64,000 bases of DNA from Sulfurospirillum sp. (GTDB lineage Bacteria; Campylobacterota; Campylobacteria; Campylobacterales; Sulfurospirillaceae), in the NCBI GenBank assembly GCA_014859685.1, contig JACUTU010000004.1:62001-126000 (forward strand). Reading direction: 5' to 3'. The notes below the pieces were generated by a model, which was given only the letters and a program-made list of their open reading frames with translations, was not told the origin of the DNA and did no database searches. Made by a program: the position numbers and the translations under genes. Every line of letters begins with the position of its first letter. Position 1 is the first letter of the stretch. Shown here in pieces: positions 67 through 21,239 of this stretch.

Positions 67-2907
67 TTGGATAATATAAAAATTTTTGGCGCAAGTGAAA
101 ATAATCTCAAAAATATCGATCTCGTTATACCAAAAAATAAATTAGTTGTTTTTACAGGCTTAAGTGGAAGCGGTAAATCGACTCTCGCTTTTGATACGCT
201 CTATGCAGAGGGTCAAAGAAGATACATAGAATCACTTTCAAGCTATGCAAGGCAATTTTTGGATCGCATTGGGAAACCAGCAGTTGAACGAATTGAGGGG
301 CTAACCCCTGCTATTGCAATAGATCAAAAAACAACTAGCAAAAATCCTCGATCTACCGTGGGTACTATAACAGAGATTTATGATTACTTGCGACTTTTAT
401 TTGCGCGAGTTGGCAAGCAGCATTGTCATCTGTGCGGCAAACCTATCTCACAAATGTCCAGCGCAGATATCATCGAACAAGTTTTAAAACTACCAGATGA
501 GAGCAAGATTATCATCCTTGCGCCTATGATTAATGAAAAAAAGGGTTCATTTGCGGATATGCTTGAATCTTTGCGTCATCAAGGTTTTGTGCGAGCATAT
601 ATAGATGGCGTGATCGTACGACTTGATGAGGATATAGAGCTTGCAAAAACGAAAAAGCACACTATCAAGGCGGTTATAGATAGAGTTACATGTAAGCTTG
701 AAAACACAGAGAGAATAGCAAGTGCTATCGAAAAAGCACTTTTGCAAAGTTACGGTGAAGTGGAAATCGATATTTTGAACAAAGAAGAGATAGGGCTAGA
801 TTTCTCACATGTACACTACAGTGAGCATCTAGCGTGTTTTGATTGTAAGATCAGTTTTGAACCACTTGAACCGCTTTCTTTTTCTTTCAACTCACCTAAA
901 GGGGCCTGTGCTACATGTGATGGTTTAGGTATCCGTTATAGTCTTGATCTCTCCAAAATTATAGATGAGAGTTTGAGTATCGATAAGGGTGCTATAAAGC
1001 TTTTTTATGGTTTTAATAAAGGATATTACGCGAAGTTGTTGCATGGATTTTGTGAAAATGCAAAGATAGATACAAACATTGCTTTTGAAGAGCTTGAAGA
1101 TTATCAACAAAAAGCCATTTTACATGGAAGCGTAGAAGAATCACATTTTATTTGGAAGCGGCATAAGTTGGTTCGAAAATGGGAAGGTGTTATCAAATTA
1201 GCGTATGATATGCTTAAAGATGAACGAGATATCAGCGATCATATGGGTGAAAAAGTATGTGATACATGTGGCGGACATCGACTCAAACTTGAGGGTTTGA
1301 GTGTCAAAGTGAGTGATAAAAATATCGCCGACATTTTAGATATGCCAATCGAGCAAGCCCTAATATTTTTTCAAAATGAGCAAAATTTTGCTTATTTGAG
1401 TCCACAGCAACAAATTATCGCGAGTTCTGTGCTTAAAGAGATTAGGGAAAGACTTTTTTTCTTATCTGATGTAGGCTTAGGCTACATAACACTTGGAAGA
1501 GATGCAAGAACCATCAGTGGCGGTGAGGCACAACGCATCCGTATAGCTTCACAAATCGGTAGCGGACTGAGTGGCGTGATGTATGTGTTGGATGAACCAA
1601 GTATTGGTTTACATGAGCGTGATACACTCAAACTAATCCGCACTCTAAGAAATCTCCAACAAAAAGGCAATAGTGTCATTGTGGTGGAACATGATAAAAA
1701 AACAATCCAATCTGCTGATTTTATTGTCGATATTGGACCATTGGCTGGAAAATTTGGTGGTGAAATTGTTTTTGCAGGTACATTTGATGAGTTGCAAAAA
1801 AAAGATACACTCACAGCACAGTATCTCAATGGTATCAAAACGATAGATTACCGCCATGATCGTGTGCAAACAGATTGGCTTGCTATCAAAAATGTTACAA
1901 TTAACAATATAGAAAACTTAGATGTTGCTATCCCACTTCGCAATCTTGTCGCCATCACGGGCGTGAGTGGGTCAGGCAAGAGTTCACTCATCTTGCAAAC
2001 ACTTCTGCCAGTTGCCAAAGAGCTACTCAATCGTGCTAGAAAAGTGAAAAAAGTTGCAGGCGTTACATGTGAGGGATTGGAGTTGCTTGATAAAGTAATT
2101 TATCTTGATCAAAGCCCTATAGGACGAACCCCGAGAAGCAATCCAGCGACTTATACAGGGCTTATGGATGAGATTCGTTTGCTCTTTACCAAAACAAAAG
2201 AGGCGCAAATTCGTGGCTATAAAGTTGGAAGATTTTCTTTCAATGTTAAAGGCGGACGGTGTGAGAAATGCCAAGGCGAGGGAGAAATTAAGATAGAGAT
2301 GCACTTTTTGCCAGATGTGATGGTACAGTGTGATACATGTAAAGGAAAACGCTACAATGCACAAACCCTTGAGATAAAATACAAAGGCAAATCGATTTAC
2401 GATGTGCTTGGTATGAGTGTCGATGAAGCATTGGCATTCTATACCGCCATTCCAAAACTTCGTGCTATTTTAGAAACGCTGAGTGATGTTGGTTTGGGAT
2501 ATATCACGCTAGGACAAAATGCCATAACACTCAGCGGTGGCGAAGCACAACGCATTAAACTTGCAAAGGAATTAAGTAAAAGAGATACGGGCAATACACT
2601 CTATATTCTCGATGAACCAACGACTGGTTTGCATTTTGCAGATGTGGATAGGCTAGTAAAAGTTTTACACCATCTCACAGATTTGGGCAATTCTGTGCTG
2701 GTTATCGAACACAATATGGATGTCATTAAAAATAGTGATTATATCATCGATATGGGCCCTGATGGCGGTAGCGGTGGCGGTAAGATAGTAGCTGTTGGCA
2801 CGCCTATGCAGATTGCAAAAAACTTTCAAAAAACAGGTAGTTATACGGGGCAATTTCTTGCCGAAGAATCGTATGTAAACAAAAAAACAAAGGTTAAAGT
2901 ATGTTAG
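67..2907 (+). CDS. uvrA: UvrABC excinuclease subunit A
   Basis: UvrA is the damage-recognition ATPase of nucleotide excision repair; it loads UvrB at lesions in the cytoplasm. The 946-residue product has normal family length and both ABC modules. The first has a Walker A motif GLSGSGKST near residue 31 and a signature ISGGEAQR near 483; the second has GVSGSGKSS near 632 and LSGGEAQR near 822, followed by the Walker B stretch LYILDEPTTGLH. Zinc-binding cysteine pairs are seen at CFDC/CATC in the first half and at CEKC/CDTC near 737-768. The start is TTG, supported by an AAGG ribosome site about 7 bases upstream. The 3' end overlaps the next gene by 7 bases. uvrC lies elsewhere in the window (39.3-41.1 kb); uvrB is not present. 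Confidence 0.98.
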   Translation: MDNIKIFGASENNLKNIDLVIPKNKLVVFTGLSGSGKSTLAFDTLYAEGQRRYIESLSSYARQFLDRIGKPAVERIEGLTPAIAIDQKTTSKNPRSTVGTITEIYDYLRLLFARVGKQHCHLCGKPISQMSSADIIEQVLKLPDESKIIILAPMINEKKGSFADMLESLRHQGFVRAYIDGVIVRLDEDIELAKTKKHTIKAVIDRVTCKLENTERIASAIEKALLQSYGEVEIDILNKEEIGLDFSHVHYSEHLACFDCKISFEPLEPLSFSFNSPKGACATCDGLGIRYSLDLSKIIDESLSIDKGAIKLFYGFNKGYYAKLLHGFCENAKIDTNIAFEELEDYQQKAILHGSVEESHFIWKRHKLVRKWEGVIKLAYDMLKDERDISDHMGEKVCDTCGGHRLKLEGLSVKVSDKNIADILDMPIEQALIFFQNEQNFAYLSPQQQIIASSVLKEIRERLFFLSDVGLGYITLGRDARTISGGEAQRIRIASQIGSGLSGVMYVLDEPSIGLHERDTLKLIRTLRNLQQKGNSVIVVEHDKKTIQSADFIVDIGPLAGKFGGEIVFAGTFDELQKKDTLTAQYLNGIKTIDYRHDRVQTDWLAIKNVTINNIENLDVAIPLRNLVAITGVSGSGKSSLILQTLLPVAKELLNRARKVKKVAGVTCEGLELLDKVIYLDQSPIGRTPRSNPATYTGLMDEIRLLFTKTKEAQIRGYKVGRFSFNVKGGRCEKCQGEGEIKIEMHFLPDVMVQCDTCKGKRYNAQTLEIKYKGKSIYDVLGMSVDEALAFYTAIPKLRAILETLSDVGLGYITLGQNAITLSGGEAQRIKLAKELSKRDTGNTLYILDEPTTGLHFADVDRLVKVLHHLTDLGNSVLVIEHNMDVIKNSDYIIDMGPDGGSGGGKIVAVGTPMQIAKNFQKTGSYTGQFLAEESYVNKKTKVKVC

Positions 2908-3710
2908 AAACTATTGTTGAGCGGATAAAATCCTTACCTCCTTTACCAAAAAGTTTTGTACAAATTAATGCTATTTGTGCAGATGAAAACGGGACTATAG
3001 ATAAGCTTGCAAAGGTGATCGAAGCAGATCCAATGCTTGTTGCAAATTTGCTCAAAATTGCTAATTCACCGTTGTATAGTTTTACGCATGAGATTAAAAG
3101 CGTATTGCAAGCAGTTTCTTTATTTGGCATGTCGATGACGCGCTCATTGGTAGCAGATATATCTGTTAAAAAGCTTTTAAAAGTCGATATAGAACCTTAT
3201 GGCATAGCCCCTGAGGAGTTTGTTCGTGTTTGCACCATGCAAAGCGCACTCATAAAAGAATGGTATAAATTTATAGATAAAACAAAACTTGATATGCTTT
3301 TTTTGGCCGCTTTGTTGCAAGAAACAGGAAAGATTTTGATAGCCGATGAGATTGTTAAAAACGATGAGGTTACCCAATTTAAATCAGAAATTGCAAGCAC
3401 GGTGAACATCGCTTCGGTTGAGCGATCTTTTGTTGGCGTTACAACAGCCCAGATAACAGCCAAGATTTTTGAGCATTGGGGTTTTGATGAAACGATGGTG
3501 CAAGCTATCGCAAATGCAGATGATTATAATGCCGCACAAGATCCTATCCGTTCGTATTCACTTGCTTTACATGTAATCAAAACAGCTATTCCTATGAATG
3601 CCCCACTTGCTGATCGAAGTGTCAATATCGCTTTGCATATTTTAGAAAAAGAGGGGATGGAGCAAAGTCATTTTGCTACTGCAATTGAGAAAATCATCGA
3701 TACATTTTAG
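2901..3710 (+). CDS. HDOD domain protein
   Basis: This 269-residue protein consists almost wholly of an HDOD domain, a relative of HD phosphohydrolases found in signalling proteins. The N-terminal stretch (LPPLPKSF, then EADPMLVANLLKIANSPLY) is the typical HDOD opening. No GGDEF, EAL or receiver domain is attached. HDOD proteins commonly lack the metal-binding HD residues and act as regulators, so enzymatic activity should not be assumed. It overlaps uvrA by 7 bases and ends 8 bases before polA, so it is probably translated with them. A link to DNA repair is possible from position but not shown. Confidence 0.88.
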   Translation: MLETIVERIKSLPPLPKSFVQINAICADENGTIDKLAKVIEADPMLVANLLKIANSPLYSFTHEIKSVLQAVSLFGMSMTRSLVADISVKKLLKVDIEPYGIAPEEFVRVCTMQSALIKEWYKFIDKTKLDMLFLAALLQETGKILIADEIVKNDEVTQFKSEIASTVNIASVERSFVGVTTAQITAKIFEHWGFDETMVQAIANADDYNAAQDPIRSYSLALHVIKTAIPMNAPLADRSVNIALHILEKEGMEQSHFATAIEKIIDTF

Positions 3711-3718
3711 GAGCATTT

Positions 3719-6367
3719 TTGAAAACATTAACCATTATCGATACATTTGGATTTTTTTTTAGAAACTACTACGCTTTACCAAATTTACGCAATAAAGAGG
3801 GTTTTCCCACAGGACTTATCACGGGTTTTGCCAATTTTATCTATACTCTTAAAAGTGAATATCCAAGTGACTATATCTTTTTTGCTCTTGATAGCAAAGG
3901 TAAAACTTTTCGCCACGATATAGACCCAAATTATAAAGCAACAAGACAAACACCACCACAAGATCTTCTAGCGCAACTTCCAATCGCCATATCGTGGATA
4001 GAAAAGATGGGATTTCAATGTTTTTGCAAAGAGGGTTACGAGGCTGATGATGTGATAGCAAGTGCTGTGAGATTTGCCAAAACACACGACATAAAAACAA
4101 GCATTGTTACCCACGACAAAGATCTCTATCAACTTATAGATGCAGGTGTTGTGATTTACGATCCTGCTAAAAAAATCGAGATAGACAAAACGGGATGCTA
4201 TGAGAAATTTGGTGTCTATCCGCAAAATATCGGTGATTATCTCTCCTTGATAGGCGATAGTGCTGACAATATTCCCGGAGTTCGCGGAATTGGACCTAAG
4301 GGAGCGAAAAAACTTTTAGATGAGTTTAGGGATCTTGAGCATATCTATGAAAATTTGCAAGAGGTTCGTAATCCGCGTGCTAAAAAACTGCTAGAAGAGG
4401 GAAGAGAAAGTGCATTTTTAAGCAAGAAACTCGTTTTGTTAGATGATTCATTGCAAATTACAGAGAGTTTTGAGCATTTTTCATTTCCAAGTGGACAACC
4501 TTTGCTAAGCATTGCACAAGAGTTAGCAAAATATGAGTTGCGCTCACTTCTATCCCGCATCGGTTACGCACCAAAAGAGCCTGTAGAAAATGAACAAAAC
4601 GCTTTTGAAGCGATACTTTTAGATACTAAAGAAAAACTATTTACCATCATACATAAGCTTTGTGCCGATGATTTAGTGGCATTTGATACCGAAACAGATG
4701 GGCTTGATGTAAAAGTTGCTAAGATTGTTGGATTTTCCTTTGCACTCGATACGCATAAGGCTTACTATGTTCCTATTGCACACAATTATCTAGGTGTTGG
4801 GGAACAAGTAAGTTTACAAGACGCTAAAGAGGCGATTGCACAGATCTTTACATGCAAGCTTGTGGGACAAAATCTCAAATACGATTTTGCAATTGTAGCA
4901 AACAATTTTGGTTTGCATAAAAATGATAATTTTGCAGATACAATGGTGCTAGCATGGTTGCTTGATCCACAGGCTTCGCATGCACTCGATGCTATGGCAA
5001 AGCGGTATTTTGATCATGATATGGTGAAGTTTAAAGATGTGGTAAAAAAAGGAACAAACTTTTCACATGTAAGTCTTGAAGATGCGTGTGTGTATGCGAG
5101 TGAAGATGCGTGGATGACGCTTTTACTCTATGAAAAATTCCAAAAAATGGTTGAGCCTTCACTTCTTGTCTTAGCAAAAGAGGTAGAATATCCTTTTGTG
5201 CAAACACTTTTAGCGATGGAAGATGTGGGGATTTTGGTGGACAAAGCCTACTTTCAAAAGCTTGAAACCAAAAGTAAAAAAGAGATTGAGCGGCTTGAGA
5301 GTGAAATTTATGTTCTTTGTGGTTGTGAGTTCAATCTCAATTCGCCCAAGCAATTAGGTGTTGTGCTTTTTGAAACGCTTGCCTTACCAACTGCCAAAAA
5401 AACAAAAACAGGGTACAGTACTGATGAGAGTGTTTTGAGTGAACTTGTGGATGCACATCCTTGTGTTGCAAAAATTTTAGAGTATAGAGAGATTTATAAA
5501 CTCCAATCAACTTATATTAAACCGCTTTTAAAACTGTGTGAGCAAAAAAGTGATAATAGAGTCCATACTTCCTTTTTGCAAACAGGTACAAGCACAGGCC
5601 GTCTCAGTTCAAAAGATCCAAATTTGCAAAATATTCCAGTCAAAACAGAGCTTGGCAGAGAAATTCGCCATGGATTTATTGCAAAAGAGGGTTTTTTGCT
5701 CGTAGGCATCGACTATTCACAAATCGAATTGCGGCTGTTAGCACATTTTTCACAAGACAAAGACCTGCTCGAAGCATTCAATAATAACCTTGATATCCAC
5801 AGGCAAACTGCTCGCAAACTCTTTGGCGAGGCGTTAGCAGATAGTAAAAGAAATGTTGCAAAAAGCATCAACTTTGGCTTGCTTTATGGTATGGGTGCAA
5901 AGAAACTCTCACAAACGCTCGGTGTTTCACAAGCTGAAGCAAAAGGGTATATACAGAGTTATTTTGACTCTTTTGAAACGGTAAAATCCTATCTCCAAAG
6001 CATTGTAGCTGATGCAAAAAAGAGCGGATTTGTCCAGACTTTACTAGGCCGAAGGCGTTATTTTGATTTTGCAAATGCAAATGCTATGCAACTTGCGATG
6101 TACGAGCGAGAATCGGTCAATACGCTCTTTCAAGGCAGTGCAGCTGATCTTATAAAATTGGCCATGCTTCGTATTAATGGGAGTTTATGCCATGAAAACG
6201 CAAAGTTGCTTTTACAAATCCACGATGAGCTTATCTTTGAAGTTAAAGAGGAAGAAGCAGATATCTTTGCACAAATTGCCGCACAGACTATGGAAGATAT
6301 TTATATGCTGCAAGTAAAGCTCAAAGTGAGTGTCGCCATCGGGAAAAATTGGGGAGAACTGAAATAA
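3719..6367 (+). CDS. polA: DNA polymerase I with 5' nuclease and intact proofreading domain
   Basis: Family A DNA polymerase for gap filling, repair and removal of Okazaki primers. The 882-residue protein has the 5' nuclease domain (about 1-280), a 3'-5' exonuclease domain whose ExoI motif FDTETD (near 322), ExoII motif NLKYDF and ExoIII YASED are all intact, and a polymerase domain with motif A (VGIDYSQIELR, near 662), motif B (KSINFGLLYG, near 714) and motif C (QIHDELIFE, near 833). Some family A enzymes have lost the exonuclease residues; this one keeps them and should proofread. Start is TTG after a good AGGAG site at the end of the upstream gene. Confidence 0.98.
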   Translation: MKTLTIIDTFGFFFRNYYALPNLRNKEGFPTGLITGFANFIYTLKSEYPSDYIFFALDSKGKTFRHDIDPNYKATRQTPPQDLLAQLPIAISWIEKMGFQCFCKEGYEADDVIASAVRFAKTHDIKTSIVTHDKDLYQLIDAGVVIYDPAKKIEIDKTGCYEKFGVYPQNIGDYLSLIGDSADNIPGVRGIGPKGAKKLLDEFRDLEHIYENLQEVRNPRAKKLLEEGRESAFLSKKLVLLDDSLQITESFEHFSFPSGQPLLSIAQELAKYELRSLLSRIGYAPKEPVENEQNAFEAILLDTKEKLFTIIHKLCADDLVAFDTETDGLDVKVAKIVGFSFALDTHKAYYVPIAHNYLGVGEQVSLQDAKEAIAQIFTCKLVGQNLKYDFAIVANNFGLHKNDNFADTMVLAWLLDPQASHALDAMAKRYFDHDMVKFKDVVKKGTNFSHVSLEDACVYASEDAWMTLLLYEKFQKMVEPSLLVLAKEVEYPFVQTLLAMEDVGILVDKAYFQKLETKSKKEIERLESEIYVLCGCEFNLNSPKQLGVVLFETLALPTAKKTKTGYSTDESVLSELVDAHPCVAKILEYREIYKLQSTYIKPLLKLCEQKSDNRVHTSFLQTGTSTGRLSSKDPNLQNIPVKTELGREIRHGFIAKEGFLLVGIDYSQIELRLLAHFSQDKDLLEAFNNNLDIHRQTARKLFGEALADSKRNVAKSINFGLLYGMGAKKLSQTLGVSQAEAKGYIQSYFDSFETVKSYLQSIVADAKKSGFVQTLLGRRRYFDFANANAMQLAMYERESVNTLFQGSAADLIKLAMLRINGSLCHENAKLLLQIHDELIFEVKEEEADIFAQIAAQTMEDIYMLQVKLKVSVAIGKNWGELK

Positions 6368-6368
6368 A

Positions 6369-7514
6369 GTGAAGCCAAAGCCAGCATCAAATTTATGGCA
6401 GATAAACCATCTTGGTGATGAGATTTGCAAAATTAGTATTTATGGTGATTTGGATGTAACGAGTATCAAAAAGATTTATCCACATGTAAAGCAACTCAAA
6501 AGTCATCCTCTGCGTTCACTTATCATTGATTGTAGGCATGTAACGCATCTTGATTTTAGTGGAGCATTGTTGCTAGCAGAACTAGCAGCTTATTTTTCAA
6601 AACAAAAAGCTACTATATTTGTAGAAAATTTGGCTCAAGAGTATAAAACTCTTCTCTTTTTTGCTCGAAAAAATTTAGGAGAAGAGTTACATGTAGAACA
6701 GTATAAAGGTTTTTATTTTCAAAAATACTTACAAAATTTAGGGCAAAAAATCTTTGATATGTGGATAACTTTTCATCTTTTTCTCTCTTTTTTTGGACAA
6801 AGTGTTGTTCGTTTTACCTTGTTACTCTCCACGCCTTGGCGTTTTCGTTTTAGGTCTGTGTTTGCACATATAGAAAAATCGGGTGCTCATGCTTTGCCGA
6901 TAGTGGCACTTACCTCTTTTTTGGTAGGACTTGTTGTTGCGTATCAAGGTGCCGAACAGTTGGTAAAATTCGGGGCAAATATTTTTATTGTGGATATGGT
7001 TAGTATCTCTGTTTTTAGAGAATTAGCCCCACTTATAGCAGCTATCGTTATAGCAGGTCGAAGTTCTTCAGCATACACGGCTCAAATCGGTACCATGAAA
7101 ATCACAGAAGAGATCGATGCTTTGCGTTCGATGGGTTTTGATCCGATTGATTTTTTGGTTTTACCACGCATACTCGCACTCGTTTTTTCTATGCCACTTA
7201 TTGTATTTTTTGCAGATATTGTGGGTGTTTTTGGTGGTATGATTGTGGCAAAACACCATTTAGGAATCAGTTATGATGAATTTATCCAAAGAGGCAGAGA
7301 TGTACTTGAGATGAAACATATACTCATTGGGCTTTTCAAGGCACCTTTTTTTGGTTTACTCATCGCACTGATCGGCTGCTTCCGCGGGTTTCAAGTTACT
7401 GGAAGCACAGAAAGTATAGGTCATTACACTACGATAAGTGTAGTAAATGCTATCTTTTTAGTGATCGTTATCAATGCCGTTATCTCTGTTTTGCTTACTG
7501 AAGTTGGCATATGA
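6369..7514 (+). CDS. mlaE: MlaE-type lipid ABC permease with N-terminal STAS domain
   Basis: Inner-membrane permease of an Mla-like ABC system that moves phospholipids between the inner and outer membranes. Residues 1-110 form a STAS domain (central motif IIDCRHVTHLDFSGALLL), equivalent to the separate MlaB protein of E. coli; residues about 130-381 are the MlaE permease, with conserved stretches such as IAGRSSSAYTAQIGTMK and EEIDALRSMGFDP. Fusion of the STAS and permease parts is common outside enterobacteria. Start is GTG, one base after the polA stop. It overlaps mlaF by 4 bases. No separate mlaB or mlaC is seen nearby. Confidence 0.92.
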   Translation: MKPKPASNLWQINHLGDEICKISIYGDLDVTSIKKIYPHVKQLKSHPLRSLIIDCRHVTHLDFSGALLLAELAAYFSKQKATIFVENLAQEYKTLLFFARKNLGEELHVEQYKGFYFQKYLQNLGQKIFDMWITFHLFLSFFGQSVVRFTLLLSTPWRFRFRSVFAHIEKSGAHALPIVALTSFLVGLVVAYQGAEQLVKFGANIFIVDMVSISVFRELAPLIAAIVIAGRSSSAYTAQIGTMKITEEIDALRSMGFDPIDFLVLPRILALVFSMPLIVFFADIVGVFGGMIVAKHHLGISYDEFIQRGRDVLEMKHILIGLFKAPFFGLLIALIGCFRGFQVTGSTESIGHYTTISVVNAIFLVIVINAVISVLLTEVGI

Positions 7515-8269
7515 AAACGATTATCAAGGTTGATGATGTTTGTACAAAATTTGGCAACCATGTTGTGCATGATGGTGTGAGTATTCATATCAATGAGGGT
7601 GAAATCTATGGTATTTTGGGCGGTAGTGGTAGTGGCAAATCTACACTTATGCGTGAAATAATTATGTTACAGCCTTTTGATAGCGGCTCCATTGAAGTTT
7701 TGGGCAAATCGTTGCGTCACATTTCATATGAACAAAAAATGTGGCTAGTGAAAAAAACAGCAGTACTTTTTCAATTTGGTGCCTTATATTCTTCGCTCAA
7801 TGTGTTAGAAAATATAAGCGTGCCATTGCTTGAATATACTGATTTGCCTCAGGAATTTATCGAACATATCGTGATGAGTAAGCTTGTTATGGTTGGACTT
7901 AAAAAAGAAACTGCATATCTTTTTCCGAGTGAACTCAGTGGTGGTATGAAAAAAAGAGTTGCCCTTGCACGAGCGCTCGCTATGGAGCCAAAAATTCTTT
8001 TTTTGGATGAGCCAACAAGTGGACTTGACCCGCTGAGTGCTGAAAATTTTGATAGATTGATACGAGAATTAAGTGTTTTGATGCAGATGAGTGTTGTTAT
8101 GGTGACGCATGATTTGCATACGATTGAACATGTTCTTGATAGATTTTGTCTTATTTATGATAAAAAGATTCTTTTTGAGGGAACACTTGATGAAGCAAAA
8201 GCATTTGAACATTTTGCTTTACGAGAGTATTTTAGCGCAGGAGGTATGCGAGCATGGAAAAAAGAATAA
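7511..8269 (+). CDS. mlaF: MlaF-type ABC ATPase
   Basis: Cytoplasmic ATPase that powers the Mla lipid transporter. The 252-residue protein has a Walker A motif GGSGSGKST, a signature LSGGMKKRVALARA (the GGM form is typical of MlaF) and a Walker B motif ILFLDEPTSGLDP. It overlaps mlaE by 4 bases and mlaD by 16 bases, which points to translational coupling of equal amounts of the subunits. Confidence 0.95.
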   Translation: MKTIIKVDDVCTKFGNHVVHDGVSIHINEGEIYGILGGSGSGKSTLMREIIMLQPFDSGSIEVLGKSLRHISYEQKMWLVKKTAVLFQFGALYSSLNVLENISVPLLEYTDLPQEFIEHIVMSKLVMVGLKKETAYLFPSELSGGMKKRVALARALAMEPKILFLDEPTSGLDPLSAENFDRLIRELSVLMQMSVVMVTHDLHTIEHVLDRFCLIYDKKILFEGTLDEAKAFEHFALREYFSAGGMRAWKKE

Positions 8270-9240
8270 GTTATAGCGTAGTAGGGGCATTTGTACTCAT
8301 TCTCTCTTGTGCATTGGCATTGTTTCTTTTTTGGATGGGTAAGTATGGCGACAGCGCAAAAGAGTTTGATCTTTATAAAAGTTTTTTCAAAGAATCAGTT
8401 TCAGGTCTCAATGTGCAATCATCCGTGAAACTAAAGGGTGTAAATATAGGAAGCGTGAAAGAGATTCGCATCAACAAGCAAAACAGTGAAGAAGTAATGG
8501 TTTTGCTTGAGATTATCAAAGATACACCAATCAAAATTGATGATATCGCTGTTTTGGGTACGCAAGGAATTACGGGGCTAAAATATATTGAAATTCAAGG
8601 CGGTAGTAAAGATGCACCACGACTCGTAGGTACACAAAATGAGATTGCAATCATTGGCACAAAAAAATCACCACTTGAAACGCTCATTAGTAGCGGCGAA
8701 TCAATATTGCAAAAAGCAGATGAAACATTTGAAAAGATTCATATGCTACTAAATGATAAAAACAGCTTACATGTAGAAAAAATTCTTCAAAATCTAGAGC
8801 AAACTACAACGCACCTCAATGCAAACAAAGAACAATTTACTAATTTGATCGCAAATGTAAACTTTTTAGCGCTTGATATGAAAAAAAAATTAGATATTTT
8901 TAGCACTGATGGAAAACAATTTTTGCAACAATCTAGAATATTTGAAGATAAAATATCACAATCATTTGATGTACTTGCTCAAGCAGGCGTGAAAGTCTCA
9001 AGTGCTTCCGATGCGACGAGAATATTTTTTCAATCTATGCAAAGCAAGCTGCAATCAAAAGAATTTGATTTCTCAAGCATTGTAGATAAGAATTTAGAGC
9101 CTTTTAATGCCACGCTTTTCTCACTTGAACAGTTAAGTCAAAGTTTGCACAAAATATCCCAATCCCTCGAAGAGAATCCAAGTAGTATTTTGTATGAACG
9201 ACAGGAAAAAATTCTCGGACCAGGAGAAAGTCATGAGTAA
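8254..9240 (+). CDS. mlaD: MlaD-type MCE protein
   Basis: Membrane-anchored MCE protein expected to form the periplasmic ring of the Mla transporter. There is one N-terminal membrane helix (about residues 6-27), one MCE domain (about 38-120; motif VKLKGVNIGSVKEIRI), and then a long helical tail of roughly 200 residues, longer than that of E. coli MlaD. A longer helical tail is seen in other one-MCE proteins and could bridge part of the periplasm, which would fit with the absence of an mlaC gene here (inference). Confidence 0.92.
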   Translation: MEKRISYSVVGAFVLILSCALALFLFWMGKYGDSAKEFDLYKSFFKESVSGLNVQSSVKLKGVNIGSVKEIRINKQNSEEVMVLLEIIKDTPIKIDDIAVLGTQGITGLKYIEIQGGSKDAPRLVGTQNEIAIIGTKKSPLETLISSGESILQKADETFEKIHMLLNDKNSLHVEKILQNLEQTTTHLNANKEQFTNLIANVNFLALDMKKKLDIFSTDGKQFLQQSRIFEDKISQSFDVLAQAGVKVSSASDATRIFFQSMQSKLQSKEFDFSSIVDKNLEPFNATLFSLEQLSQSLHKISQSLEENPSSILYERQEKILGPGESHE

Positions 9241-16908: not shown

Positions 16909-18330
16909 TTACGGTATGTGAGGCAGTTTCACAACTACACGAAGTCCTTTTGGTTTTTTATTGTGCGCTGTTATCTCACCTAGATGTAGTTCTACAATTT
17001 GCTTGACAAGCGACAAGCCAAGTCCGTATCCTTTGATGTATTTTGAGCGTGACATATCGGCACGATAAAAACGCTCAAAAATATGCGGTAGCTTTTCTTC
17101 TTCAATGCCATTGCCTTGATCCTCAATACAAAAATAAGCATAATTTTCTTTTTTCTCTAAACTCAAAGTAATGGTTGTAGTTTCAGGTGAGTATTTGATA
17201 GCGTTTTCGATCAAGTTAGTAAAGACGGTTTTGAGTAAAATATCATCACATTTGAGGTAAATAATATCTAATTGAATAACCTTGAAGCTTATATTTTTCT
17301 GACTTGCTACCACCATTAATTCATCGAGTGAGCTTAAAAAAATATCATCCAAAGCTTGGAGCGTAAACTTATTTTTTAACGATTCTTTTTCAATATAAGT
17401 AAGCATGAGGAGATTTTTCACGATAGATTGGAGTTTGTCAACTTCTTCTAGGTTTGAAATTAAAACATTACGATACTCTTCCTTGCTTCTATTTTCTTTT
17501 AAGACAACCTCAATTTCCCCTTTCATCACAGTTAAAGGCGTTTTTAATTCATGTGAAACATCAGAGGAGAAGCGTTTGATTTGTCTGAGTGACTCGCGAA
17601 GCTTTAAATCAGTCTCATCACTAAAAATTTGCAAAGCCTTGATTGAGCATATGGTGATGACCAAAGCACAAATGGCTCTTAAAAATTGTACAGGCAGACC
17701 AAATGTTTCAAAAAACCAAACGGTATTGATAATATTTCCTGGAAAATATTGCGTTGGTGCAACAGCAATGCCAGCAAGTAGTGCATAAGCAATAAAAGCA
17801 ATGCCTGGAATTTTAAAATAAATTTTTAGACGGTCAATATATTCGACTTTTTTTAACGATTCTCCATAAAAATAAAGTCCAACACCAAGTAAAAAAGGAC
17901 CAAAAAATCCATAGGTATAGCGAATAGCCGCAATAGTTTCGTTGAGTGATGGGTGGATTAGAATAAGTATTAAGAGATTTGATAATCCAATAGTGTAAAT
18001 TGTAGGTCCTGCATAGAGGATGTGTAGAAAATGGAGTTTGGATTTTTTATTTTTGAAGCTTTCACGGACGATAAAGCGTGAAAACTCAAATAAAAAAAGA
18101 TAAGAAATAAATAATAAAACAGCTTTAGGAGGGTTTAATACACTTTCATATTGTGGGAAAATATACATGTATAAAAACATCCATTCTACAAGAGAATGAC
18201 AAAGAGCAAATGCCGCTAAAAGCCAAATTTTTTTAGCAAAAAAAATGTTACTATCTTTTGTTTTGACAAATAGAACCAATATTCCTAAAACAAAAAACGA
18301 AAGTCCATAGATAAAGAAAATAACTTCCAT
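16909..18330 (-). CDS. Sensor histidine kinase with multi-helix membrane domain
   Basis: Kinase of 473 residues. About seven hydrophobic segments in the first 240 residues replace a periplasmic sensor, so the signal is likely sensed in or at the membrane. His260 in DVSHELKTPLTVMK is the phospho-acceptor; the ATPase domain shows NLIENAIKYSP and GYGLGLSLVKQ. The regulator gene abuts it upstream (1-base overlap). The pair reads away from the heme protein gene at 19115, across a 116-base gap with an inverted repeat. It probably controls that gene (inference from position). Confidence 0.92.
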   Translation of the reverse strand: MEVIFFIYGLSFFVLGILVLFVKTKDSNIFFAKKIWLLAAFALCHSLVEWMFLYMYIFPQYESVLNPPKAVLLFISYLFLFEFSRFIVRESFKNKKSKLHFLHILYAGPTIYTIGLSNLLILILIHPSLNETIAAIRYTYGFFGPFLLGVGLYFYGESLKKVEYIDRLKIYFKIPGIAFIAYALLAGIAVAPTQYFPGNIINTVWFFETFGLPVQFLRAICALVITICSIKALQIFSDETDLKLRESLRQIKRFSSDVSHELKTPLTVMKGEIEVVLKENRSKEEYRNVLISNLEEVDKLQSIVKNLLMLTYIEKESLKNKFTLQALDDIFLSSLDELMVVASQKNISFKVIQLDIIYLKCDDILLKTVFTNLIENAIKYSPETTTITLSLEKKENYAYFCIEDQGNGIEEEKLPHIFERFYRADMSRSKYIKGYGLGLSLVKQIVELHLGEITAHNKKPKGLRVVVKLPHIP

Positions 18331-18998
18331 TAAATTTCGATCTTATACCCTGAACCCCGAATGGTTTTAATTAAGGGTTTTTCATTTTGTGTATCAATTT
18401 TTTGTCTGAGATGGTGAATAAAAACATTCACTACATTACTAGATACAGATTCGTTAATACCCCATAATTTTTCTTGAAATTGTGTGTAGGTGATTGTACT
18501 TCCTTGATTTGAGAGCATATAAACTAAAATATCAAACTCTTTAATAGTAAGAGTAATCGGTTTTCCTGATCGTGTGACGATGCGTTTTGTAAGATTAATT
18601 TCAAGGGTATCAAAAGAAATATTTTCATGGTATTGGTATAGGGAGCGACGCAAAAGCGAACGCACGCGTGCCAATAATTCTGAAAAAACAAAAGGTTTAC
18701 CCAAATAATCATCTGCCCCACATTCTAATCCTGTTATCCGGTCTTCAACATTATTGCGAGCAGTTAGCATTAAAATTGGAATGAGAATTCTTTTTTGACG
18801 CACATGCTCACAAATTTTGGTACCATCAATAGTGGGCAGCATCCAATCAACAATAAGCAAATCATACTTTTGATTTTCACAAAGATAAAGTCCATCAAAA
18901 CCATCGTTTGCTGTATCGACGATAAAACCTTCTTCTTGTAAGCCTTTTTGTACAAATGATGCTATTTTGGAGTCATCTTCAATAATAAGTATTCTCAT
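18330..18998 (-). CDS. OmpR-family response regulator
   Basis: Response regulator of 222 residues: receiver domain with Asp51 (YDLLIVDWMLPTIDG) and Lys in YLGKPFVF, then a winged-helix DNA-binding domain (LTIKEFDILVYMLS ... NVVNVFIHHLRQKID). The ATG at 18998 gives the standard start MRILIIEDD; a TTG six bases upstream is also in frame but less likely. Partner of the kinase gene just downstream, and divergent from the heme protein gene at 19115. Confidence 0.92.
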   Translation of the reverse strand: MRILIIEDDSKIASFVQKGLQEEGFIVDTANDGFDGLYLCENQKYDLLIVDWMLPTIDGTKICEHVRQKRILIPILMLTARNNVEDRITGLECGADDYLGKPFVFSELLARVRSLLRRSLYQYHENISFDTLEINLTKRIVTRSGKPITLTIKEFDILVYMLSNQGSTITYTQFQEKLWGINESVSSNVVNVFIHHLRQKIDTQNEKPLIKTIRGSGYKIEI

Positions 18999-19079
18999 AA
19001 ACAAATCTTAGCATACTTCCATAAAATAATTATTAAAAAAAAGAAAGAATTCATTAATGGTGAGGCAATAAATAAAGCG

Positions 19080-19094
19080 TATAGTGCGACTATA
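19080..19094. promoter_or_regulatory. Perfect inverted repeat between the response regulator and heme protein genes
   Basis: TATAGT-GCG-ACTATA: perfect 6-base arms around 3 bases, 20 bases before the start of the gene at 19115 and just ahead of its ribosome site (AAAAGGAG). The position suits an operator for the adjacent regulator or for a repressor. OmpR-type proteins usually bind direct repeats, so the binding protein is open. Confidence 0.4.
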
Positions 19095-19114
19095 TTTTTC
19101 AAAAGGAGTATTTT

Positions 19115-20143
19115 ATGAAAGTTTCAACTGTTTTGGCAGCCTGCCTTATCGCTGGATCAAGTTTGTTTGGTGCTGGTATCCTTGAGAGCTTCAAAGGCTC
19201 ACCAGCTTCAATGGATAGCAATGATGTTGCATGGGTGAAGGGAAAAACGCTGACTATTTTGGTGGATCAAAAACCATATCAACCAGCAAATTACAAAGGT
19301 ATTCAAGATACAAGTGTTGATCTTAAATCGCTTTATGATGCTGAAAATATTTATTTTAGAGTTGAGTATGCAGATCCAACGCAAAGTTTAGAGAGATATC
19401 CTTGGATTAAACAAGCTGATGGTACATGGAAAATGAAGAAAAATTATGATGAGACTGGACATGAAAATACCTATTATGAGGATAAATTTGCAATGTTTTG
19501 GAACATCAATACAAAAGGTTTTGATAAAAAAGGATGTGCAATTGCTTGCCACATAGCAAAAGACGGTAAGATCAATGGCTATTCTGAAAAAGCACCTGGT
19601 AGAAAATACACTCGTAATTTAAAAGAAACAATTGACATGTGGCACTGGATGTCTGTTAGAGGCGAGCCTGTTGGACATAACACGGACCAATTTGTTGATA
19701 GCACTGATAATGGTAAAACAAATAAAAACTGGGGACGAAAAGGCGATGAGATAATCTCAGGCGGCTATAAAGATAATGTAAACAAAGAAAAAACAGCACC
19801 TATTTTTATGAGCAAAAACAAAGATCATAAAGAGTTTTGGATTCTTGAGAGTGATAAAGTTCCTTTTGTAGATACTTTTAAAGCAGGCGATATGATTCCA
19901 AGTATGATCGTAGCTCCTATGGAAGGTTCTCGGGGTGATGTTGCCTCAAAAGCAAAATGGGAGAATGGCAAATGGACACTTGTGTTTAAACGAGCTTTGG
20001 TTACAAAACATCCAAAATCAGAAATACAAGATGTGCAATTCAATGATTTGAAAAAAGAATATTCATTTGGCGTTGCCGTATTTGACAATACAGCGCTTAA
20101 CCACCTTTATCATGATGGTGTTTTTAAGTTGTCATTTAAATAA
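19115..20143 (+). CDS. Periplasmic heme-binding protein of the ethylbenzene dehydrogenase gamma-subunit family
   Basis: A 342-residue secreted protein with a Sec signal peptide (about 1-19, ending SLFGA). It resembles the EB_dh/DMSO-reductase-like heme-binding family, whose members carry a heme b or c and pass electrons to or from periplasmic molybdoenzymes. A CX3CH motif (Cys141-Ala-Ile-Ala-Cys145-His146) lies in GCAIACH, with DMWHW near 175 and GDMIPSM further on as possible axial ligand regions. CX3CH has one residue more than the usual c-heme motif, so whether the heme is covalently bound is uncertain. No molybdoenzyme gene is nearby. The next gene encodes a membrane c-type cytochrome. 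Confidence 0.8.
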   Translation: MKVSTVLAACLIAGSSLFGAGILESFKGSPASMDSNDVAWVKGKTLTILVDQKPYQPANYKGIQDTSVDLKSLYDAENIYFRVEYADPTQSLERYPWIKQADGTWKMKKNYDETGHENTYYEDKFAMFWNINTKGFDKKGCAIACHIAKDGKINGYSEKAPGRKYTRNLKETIDMWHWMSVRGEPVGHNTDQFVDSTDNGKTNKNWGRKGDEIISGGYKDNVNKEKTAPIFMSKNKDHKEFWILESDKVPFVDTFKAGDMIPSMIVAPMEGSRGDVASKAKWENGKWTLVFKRALVTKHPKSEIQDVQFNDLKKEYSFGVAVFDNTALNHLYHDGVFKLSFK

Positions 20144-20152
20144 CTGTCATCA

Positions 20153-20289
20153 CGCACTTTTGAAAAAAGTTCGTAAATACCTCTAATTTTCTCGAAAAGT
20201 ACTTTTTTCATAGCTTTAGAGGCTTGTAGGGACATTTGTCCCTGCCATTAAAATGGACGCGTTCGTTTTAATGCGTAACATCAGTAAAT
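20153..20289 (+). repeat. Intergenic repeat, copy 1
   Basis: First of three related intergenic copies. Shared blocks include CGCACTTTTG, AAAAGTTCGTAAATAC, TTTTCTCGAAAAGTAC, TAGCTTTAG, TTTGTCCCTGCCA, GACGCGTT and ATCAGTAAA. Within it 20228-20243 is a perfect hairpin (AGGGACA-TT-TGTCCCT). Copy 2 is at 21159-21239 and copy 3, inverted, at 39137-39281. No open frame is kept. Copies 1 and 2 bracket the cytochrome gene. Confidence 0.7.
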
Positions 20290-20300
20290 AAAAAGGAGCA

Positions 20301-21011
20301 ATGGTGTCGATTCAACAACTTAATTTTCAAGCAAAAACAGCAATTTCTCTCTTTTTGCTTTTTGTGATTGTCGCAACGATTTCATCAATTATTCTATTGG
20401 GTTTAGAATTATCGGGCGAAAAAAAAGGGATAAATATCCCAACAATAGGACAGGTGCAGAATAAATACACTATGCCAACATTAGTTGCCGCCATGAAAGG
20501 TGGCATGTATGAGTATGTGAGTGACGATGCAGATATCAATACCGTAAATCAATGGATTAAAGAAGGTGCTAAAAAAGAAGGAGAGCTTTATGGAGATGCG
20601 TGGAAAATTATTCAACAAGATTGCGCTAATTGCCATAGTAAGAGTTCAAAAATGAGTAAAGCCATGCCCTCTATCTCTTTTGAAACCTACGAACAAGTCT
20701 TGACGCATACGCAAGCAGGATATTCGTGGTTAAAAATGTCAAAACAAGCACATATTCATATGTTTGGAATTACAACATTTTTAATCCTCACAGGATTAAT
20801 GTTTGCATACACAAGCTATCATCCGATATTGCGTACTGGACTTATATTGACATCGTTTGGAGGAGCATTTTTAGATATCTTCTCATGGTGGTTTTCAAAA
20901 TTTATCCCCGAACTTGTGTATCTCATCTTTGCAATGGGAGGCTTAATGGTAAGCTCGATCTTGCTGATGTGTTTACTCATTTTAGCAGATATTTGGAAGA
21001 CAAGAGACTAA
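20301..21011 (+). CDS. Membrane-bound c-type cytochrome
   Basis: A 236-residue membrane protein. One N-terminal helix (about 13-35) is followed by a periplasmic loop with one CXXCH heme c site (Cys108-Ala-Asn-Cys111-His112) and then about four membrane helices from residue 145 on. The stretch KQAHIHMFG at the second helix offers His residues that could ligate further heme. It probably links the quinone pool or membrane electron carriers to the secreted heme protein encoded upstream (inference). Start is ATG at 20301 with an AAAAGGAG site. I do not recognise a named family. It is flanked on both sides by copies of the same intergenic repeat. Confidence 0.75.
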   Translation: MVSIQQLNFQAKTAISLFLLFVIVATISSIILLGLELSGEKKGINIPTIGQVQNKYTMPTLVAAMKGGMYEYVSDDADINTVNQWIKEGAKKEGELYGDAWKIIQQDCANCHSKSSKMSKAMPSISFETYEQVLTHTQAGYSWLKMSKQAHIHMFGITTFLILTGLMFAYTSYHPILRTGLILTSFGGAFLDIFSWWFSKFIPELVYLIFAMGGLMVSSILLMCLLILADIWKTRD

Positions 21012-21028: not shown

Positions 21029-21158
21029 ACAGGCTAGAATGGCACTTACTTAAGCAAAAAGTACACTAAAAAAGTGGAATAAAACTGGCTTTAAAGGAAG
21101 TATCGTAACCAAACAAAATACTCCATAAAGCCAGCAATATGAATCATAACTGATCTTA

Positions 21159-21239
21159 CGCACTTTTGTAAAAAAGTTCGTAAATACTTCTCATTTTCTC
21201 GAAAAGTACCCTTTTCGTAGCTTTAGTGGGTAACATCAG
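21159..21239 (+). repeat. Intergenic repeat, copy 2 (partial)
   Basis: Closely matches copy 1 from CGCACTTTTG to TAGCTTTAG and then jumps to the GTAACATCAG end. The middle hairpin segment (GGGACA/TGTCCC) present in copy 1 is missing here. Same orientation as copy 1. Confidence 0.7.

Follow-up and report, generated by a model that had tools for sequence, protein, structure and literature searches.

A conserved four-gene cassette of Sulfurospirillum and relatives: an exported EB_dh-family heme protein and a membrane cytochrome, probably under their own two-component system

A sensor kinase and a response regulator facing two heme protein genes recur as a self-contained four-gene cassette in Sulfurospirillum and its relatives, and the two heme proteins, which would carry respiratory electrons, are probably switched on by their own sensor pair. 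The cassette was analysed in a stretch of 64,000 nucleotides, referred to here as the window, from a Sulfurospirillum genome assembly of 2.1 Mb in 23 contigs. The explanation regarded as best, and judged reasonably probable, is a menaquinol-linked respiratory module in which electrons pass from the membrane cytochrome to the heme of the EB_dh-family protein, and which is switched on by a respiratory signal and can be exchanged for an operon encoding a multiheme reductase. The two-component system is of an ordinary type with an unnamed membrane sensor, and the cytochrome is an unnamed protein of quinol-linked appearance. The EB_dh protein looks like a member of its family that has been turned into a stand-alone cytochrome.

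The kinase and regulator genes lie on the minus strand. The sensor histidine kinase (473 aa, positions 16909..18330) combines HisKA and HATPase_c domains, as recognized by Pfam, with a multi-helix membrane N-terminus, and its conserved partner is a response regulator (222 aa, 18330..18998) with Response_reg and Trans_reg_C domains; a receiver and winged-helix regulator next to a HisKA/HATPase kinase is the composition of an OmpR-type two-component system. All remaining features are on the plus strand. A putative regulator site of TTAA direct repeats with about 11-nt spacing (19032..19058), derived from the footprint of 15 loci and a pattern search, is followed by a putative -10 element of the EB_dh promoter, TATAGT (19080..19085), proposed from the sequence and the 15-locus alignment. 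The exported EB_dh-family heme protein (342 aa, 19115..20143), identified by PF09459 and by structure-model matches, carries the codons for CAIACH, a CX3CH motif at residues 141-146, at 19535..19552. The membrane monoheme cytochrome (236 aa, 20301..21011), recognized from conservation, a helix model and a distant homologue in genome G418, has its CANCH codons (CXXCH, residues 108-112) at 20622..20636. The preliminary description of this DNA had reported an exported CX3CH protein of the EB_dh type, a membrane c-type cytochrome and a kinase/regulator pair divergent from both, and each was found again: the first by its PF09459 match, Sec-like N-terminal segment and CAIACH site, the second by its one CANCH motif and hydrophobic segments, and the third by its Response_reg/Trans_reg_C and HisKA/HATPase_c domains.

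The two heme genes are separated by 157 nt in the window, compared with -1 to about 60 nt in relatives. Copies of an imperfect intergenic repeat, detected by sequence comparison, flank the cytochrome gene on both sides, copy 1 between the heme genes (20140..20222) and copy 2 downstream of the cytochrome gene (21146..21229), with a main 65-nt block that is 88% identical. It could represent a REP-like sequence or a mobile element of small size.

Of the 44 genomes of the family, 12 encode an EB_dh orthologue. Together with L010 and L011, from records titled Campylobacteraceae and Halarcobacter, and with G361, a genome from another family within the same order, they provide 15 loci, all of which show the order kinase-regulator, divergent, EB_dh-cytochrome. 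Because the same four-gene order recurs in 15/15 loci, the arrangement goes beyond chance. The neighbourhood is shared in most loci of one genus, and other flanks, likewise read by eye, surround the cassette in the window, G033, G034, G035, G042, the L010/L011 pair and G361. Among the 276 ORFs of the 15 loci, heme motifs are confined to the cassette pair and to one window ORF with CDDCH, read by eye as a DnaJ zinc motif. In a tblastn search of the window and 14 related loci, five molybdoenzymes encoded in the window genome gave no match, nor did a type II beta-like query, the octaheme protein or NrfD, while the positive control was found. The earlier statement that no molybdoenzyme adjoins the heme pair is thereby upheld, and the description of a small regulated pair without an adjacent oxidoreductase extends across the 15 loci, with CX3CH in every one. 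The PF09459 match is strong in 10/10 genomes with a full-length cytochrome in a 397-genome sample (distant G418 homologue excluded). No relative appeared in viral contigs scanned with the EB_dh alignment or in a plasmid search with the cytochrome, and the titles and abstract openings listed by searches of open-licence literature contained no description of this cassette.

The divergent promoter is also conserved. Alignment of the 15 intergenic regions revealed conserved TTAA repeats with a period of about 11 nt, followed by a -10-like box. A pattern built from this footprint was searched in 12 genomes with two mismatches allowed. Perfect matches fell at EB_dh promoters in 10/10 cases, each being the only perfect copy in its genome, and the EB_dh promoter of G042 carries the site with one mismatch. 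Four other matches were obtained, namely one within an ORF of G021:C1, the same sequence in G029:C4, one in G042:C109 and a one-mismatch site in the window genome; the reversed control pattern produced a single match in total. The EB_dh promoter of the window was missed by the search because its copy has three mismatches, all in the middle repeat (hand count). The best copy in the window genome stands before an octaheme operon (locus L109), not before the cassette.

The membrane cytochrome carries a single CXXCH, the CANCH at residue 108, in which C108, C111 and H112 are invariant in a 9-row alignment. Its layout comprises a first transmembrane helix, a periplasmic CXXCH domain and three further helices with HIHxFGI and DIFSWW motifs; a low-confidence model (pLDDT 58.6) has four long helices, and three segments exceed 1.5 on the Kyte-Doolittle scale. 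Pfam and NCBIfam returned no named family above cut-off, no PDB relative was detected (Foldseek of the model, best E 0.97), and the window genome holds no paralogue. The protein does not belong with NapC/NirT-type quinol dehydrogenases, given that it has no Pfam match and one CXXCH. The 9-row profile, run over 397 genomes, recovered 11 proteins, from 10 cassette genomes and the distant G418, whose homologue scores E 3.7e-19 at 26% identity. The cassette and G418 cytochromes share HIHxFGI, where a helix begins, and D-I-x-S-W-W, where the following helix ends; the latter motif reads DISSWW in G418. The HIH and DIFSWW motifs may thus mark a site of reaction with quinone close to the periplasmic face. 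The G418 gene (L044/L092 on G418:C6; 8631-9392 of L092) sits, by eye, between genes for hydrogenase large and small subunits. A G130 match from a single-sequence search (E 9.6e-4) was dropped, as it lies inside an unrelated ORF.

The assignment of the exported protein to the EB_dh family is secure, with a PF09459 score of 151.4 bits (cut-off 33.3) and coverage of profile positions 2-235 of 236. Its N-terminus contains one hydrophobic segment resembling a Sec signal. Canonical CXXCH is absent from the protein, CX3CH is kept in 15/15 orthologues, and the only invariant histidines in these 15 sequences are His 146, 177, 330 and 333. Foldseek and VIA-align both place the model on NXR-C and the gamma subunit of ethylbenzene dehydrogenase (EbDH), with Z 14.6 and rmsd 3.8 over 188 residues for 2ivf_C and Z 14.0 and rmsd 4.0 over 204 residues for 7b04_C; the model (pLDDT 49.9) is poor outside its core, and the CX3CH region falls in the poorly modelled part. 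The heme b ligands of NXR-C are given as Met155 and Lys305 in PMC8387239. In a weak alignment, placed by hand from HMMER output, the position of Met155 corresponds to the vicinity of EB_dh residue 166, with no Met in 160-173, and that of Lys305 to about His333. Most likely, the heme would be bound covalently at CX3CH, with His146 as one ligand and His333 or His330 as the second. A Bradyrhizobium relative lacks CX3CH and retains His330 and His333. The window genome also encodes a second, weak EB_dh-like protein (L002 on G000:C3, 1327-2454; 25.6 bits, below the cut-off) with a C-terminal CXXCH domain and an unrelated neighbourhood.

The unusual heme motif had led to the proposal of either the normal or a special maturation path. 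The special path found no favour. Matches to PF01578, the cytochrome c synthase family, average 2.78 in 9 cassette-positive and 2.78 in 9 cassette-negative g4 genomes (hand count; genomes at least 94% complete, those under 94% dropped), and two are present both in the cassette-bearing window genome (G000) and in its congener G043, in which no EB_dh orthologue was found. No heme lyase gene lies in the cassette or nearby. A dedicated heme lyase was consequently rejected on the equal PF01578 counts with and without the cassette. An atypical CX3CH is moreover reported beside the membrane domain of ImcH homologues in PMC6295460. Because synthase counts are equal and no lyase gene is nearby, the ordinary path is the simplest reading. 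Of the earlier account of a regulated electron-transfer branch, the small, regulated pair without an adjacent oxidoreductase has stood, and the special maturation path has not.

A hint at function comes from a paralogous regulator/kinase pair elsewhere in the window genome (L109, G000:C17:10400-24400), whose two members are 58% and 43% identical to their counterparts in the window. The one-mismatch TTAA site lies between this pair and an operon (genes at 2122-9084 of the locus) encoding a diheme cytochrome c, a tetraheme cytochrome c, an iron-sulfur protein, NrfD and an octaheme cytochrome resembling hydroxylamine oxidoreductase (HAO). The octaheme protein has eight CXXCH motifs, and its best PDB relatives are 4qo5 (E 1.8e-36), an octaheme protein from Ignicoccus, and HAO (E 2.9e-12). 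In G042, of the same genus, a syntenic locus whose flanking genes match on either side has EB_dh-cytochrome in place of the octaheme operon; its pair is orthologous to that of L109 (81% and 72% identity), and no octaheme match was detected in this genome. Since G042 is a metagenome-assembled genome (81% completeness, 6% contamination) and its regulator and kinase ORFs look frameshifted, the functional state of the locus is uncertain and its gene order is clear. With the same pair and different genes at a syntenic position, the outputs therefore appear to have been swapped at one regulatory locus. Co-location with a known oxidoreductase in related genomes had been named as an observation that would refute the earlier account: inside the cassette none was seen, and at one remove the pair orthologous to that of G042 faces a multiheme, reductase-type operon in the window genome. 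The same octaheme operon occurs in G039 and G011 without this kinase, near Crp/Fnr-like regulators, and in G010 a similar but shorter octaheme protein adjoins a NapA-like gene (all by eye). PMC13209400 discusses nitrite reduction as the role of HAO-like octaheme proteins in Sulfurospirillum. By way of this swap, nitrite, hydroxylamine or NO-level nitrogen compounds become the leading, weakly supported guess for the acceptor, nitrogen oxides being reached through two steps of inference. The swap also provides a handle on physiology, as an inducer of the octaheme operon should induce the EB_dh/cytochrome pair as well.

Electrons could instead run the other way, the EB_dh protein taking them from a periplasmic donor such as reduced sulfur and the cytochrome feeding the quinone pool. 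According to PMC8840923, the EB_dh heme of EbDH is the exit for substrate electrons and has a high potential of +256 mV. A gene for a TauE/SafE-type exporter, of a family confirmed by Pfam for L025 and L028, stands directly behind the cytochrome in 5/15 loci (L025, L028, L029, L031, L032). Ten loci, including the window, lack it at that place, and because of this limited occurrence the sulfite link is a weak rival only, its hint being weaker than that for nitrogen oxides. The Met/Lys pair credited with the high potential is, in the weak alignment, not apparently conserved, and the pair orthologous to that of G042 faces a reductase-type operon. Reverse flow is accordingly considered unlikely.

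The kinase bears on a further alternative. It is present in all cassette loci. The preliminary description credited it with a seven-helix membrane sensor, which is plausible: six hydrophobic segments of its N-terminus pass the threshold, and a predicted seventh (about 140-158) stays below it. The N-terminal 235 aa alone gave no Pfam match. A link to heavy metals, suggested by the best NCBIfam names of the regulator, was set aside since scores were below cut-off. In the 44 family genomes, the N-terminus has 21 matches in 18 genomes. Eighteen belong to close kinases (at least 47% identity), and 18/18 face an exported heme gene, which is EB_dh in 12 cases, a monoheme cytochrome c of about 165 aa in 5 and the octaheme operon in 1. 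The five kinases facing the small cytochrome c belong to a third genus, and all five promoters of these cytochrome genes carry TTAA repeats too. The small cytochrome c ORFs (L133-L137) are highly conserved and have a C-terminal CNxCH; one member scanned matched no Pfam family, and a PDB search with their alignment returned ribosomal proteins at best (E 0.23). The remaining three matches are two at 31-33% identity and one 46-aa remnant. Beside the two relatives at 31-33% identity lie weakly cytochrome P460-like proteins with CIACH (L138 6163-6699, L139 1820-2371). The two relatives themselves combine the membrane sensor domain with outputs of another type; in L138, the one of the two that was checked, this output is GGDEF. 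Outside the family, distant matches in the 397-genome sample comprise 7 loci and one fragment (26-33% identity), with no heme gene within 3.6 kb in 7/7 loci; facing a heme gene is therefore a trait of this kinase branch and not of the sensor domain at large.

Such strict pairing in 18/18 close relatives, together with an N-terminus that lacks a Pfam sensor-domain match, could mean that the heme pair is itself part of the sensor, the EB_dh protein binding a ligand or sensing redox state and signalling to the membrane kinase. The partner heme proteins are, however, mutually unrelated (EB_dh, small cytochrome c, octaheme operon), so regulated outputs fit better than a fixed sensor part, and the repeat site is present in the divergent promoters. 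A sensory role for the pair is thus thought slightly less likely still than reverse electron flow. What stands out in either case is a multi-helix sensor that matches no named family, and exported heme proteins are what its close relatives within the Sulfurospirillum family face.

The pair might also supply the heme subunits for a molybdoenzyme whose genes lie elsewhere, in the manner of type II DMSO-reductase gamma subunits. The EB_dh fold is that of the gamma subunits of EbDH and NXR (as described in PMC8840923 and PMC8387239), and the protein has a weak match to TIGR03477. That score is 23.7 against a cut-off of 169.85, however, which argues against a type II DMSO-reductase heme b subunit, and the type II alpha model reached at best 195.1 and 117.5 against 984.75 in the window genome (five scanned of six PF00384 matches). 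No alpha or beta genes lie near the cassette in the 15 loci. A gamma subunit of a local molybdoenzyme was rejected on these below-cut-off scores and the empty tblastn search. PF09459 occurs in 58 of 397 genomes of the phylum, where type II gamma-like proteins are of different build: the 20 other PF09459 proteins extracted are 398-407-aa fusions, cytochrome c-like with a C-terminal CXXCH, and the fusion-type loci, among the matches listed, adjoin a type II beta-like gene. In a profile comparison with these fusions only the N-terminal part of the cassette EB_dh protein aligned, so heme ligands cannot be mapped from it. Service to a distant molybdoenzyme is rated a little below a sensory role. 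The annotation of an EB_dh relative as 'ethylbenzene dehydrogenase-related protein' could wrongly imply hydrocarbon oxidation. Finally, that the cassette is decaying or unregulated in the window's species is highly improbable, because, despite the three mismatches and lost middle repeat of its TTAA site and the repeat element separating the two heme genes, none of the four reading frames is disrupted and the invariant residues are retained.

The preferred reading, a signal-switched, menaquinol-linked module, would operate as follows. The kinase/regulator pair would sense a respiratory condition or an acceptor, and the regulator would activate the divergent operon through the TTAA direct repeats, a site and arrangement that are conserved. 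The membrane cytochrome would oxidize menaquinol near the periplasmic face, at the HIH/DIFSWW motifs, and its heme c would relay the electrons to the heme carried by the exported EB_dh protein, which would hand them to a periplasmic acceptor. The module would then be a small alternative to the octaheme/NrfCD-type reductase operon that an orthologous pair controls in a sister species. For the cassette, we infer the acceptor, the direction of the electrons and the covalent heme. A bolder version, which is tentative and a good deal less likely than the module as such, holds that EB_dh left the molybdoenzymes to become a covalent, stand-alone redox protein, that it forms with the HIH/DIFSWW cytochrome a new minimal two-protein respiratory branch in which the EB_dh heme is possibly the terminal reductase, and that this branch is exchanged with an octaheme operon of the same job under one kinase/regulator pair and promoter site.

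Several known systems share single features with the cassette. The fold of its EB_dh protein is common to 2ivf_C (EbDH gamma) and 7b04_C (Kuenenia NXR-C), likewise single-heme soluble proteins. According to PMC8387239, these bind a non-covalent heme b through Met/Lys ligands within a molybdoenzyme complex, whereas the cassette protein has CX3CH, no molybdoenzyme nearby and, in the weak alignment, no aligned Met and a His near the Lys position. EB_dh proteins of solved structure are molybdoenzyme subunits, and the cassette thus shows the fold employed apart from such an enzyme and with its heme site altered. A comparable combination, likened by description, is alt_NxrC of Nitrospina gracilis, which joins a DMSO-reductase-like heme b domain to c-type heme sites; according to PMC3578206, some alt_NxrC are soluble and suggested to be electron carriers, but they have 1-3 cytochrome c sites and a setting of nitrite oxidation. 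The only plasmid-borne EB_dh relative found, Bradyrhizobium WP_283043587.1 (L075; 26.3% identity), also joins a membrane heme domain to EB_dh, here as a fusion, but differs in lacking CX3CH, in its b561-type membrane part (PF01292) and in its 2Fe-2S protein neighbour.

On the regulatory side, the closest parallel is PceS/PceP of Sulfurospirillum, compared here by its description in PMC7755780, which likewise consists of a kinase with seven predicted helices and an OmpR-type regulator acting on direct repeats as a respiratory switch. PceS differs in an extra periplasmic domain at its N-terminus, and the repeats bound by its partner regulator are CTATW at a spacing of 17 bp, in contrast to the TTAA repeats about 11 nt apart of the cassette. 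ImcH homologues share the atypical CX3CH and, in PMC6295460, ImcH is discussed as a quinol oxidase; they are multiheme proteins with CX3CH beside membrane helices, whereas the CX3CH of the cassette is located in a soluble EB_dh domain.
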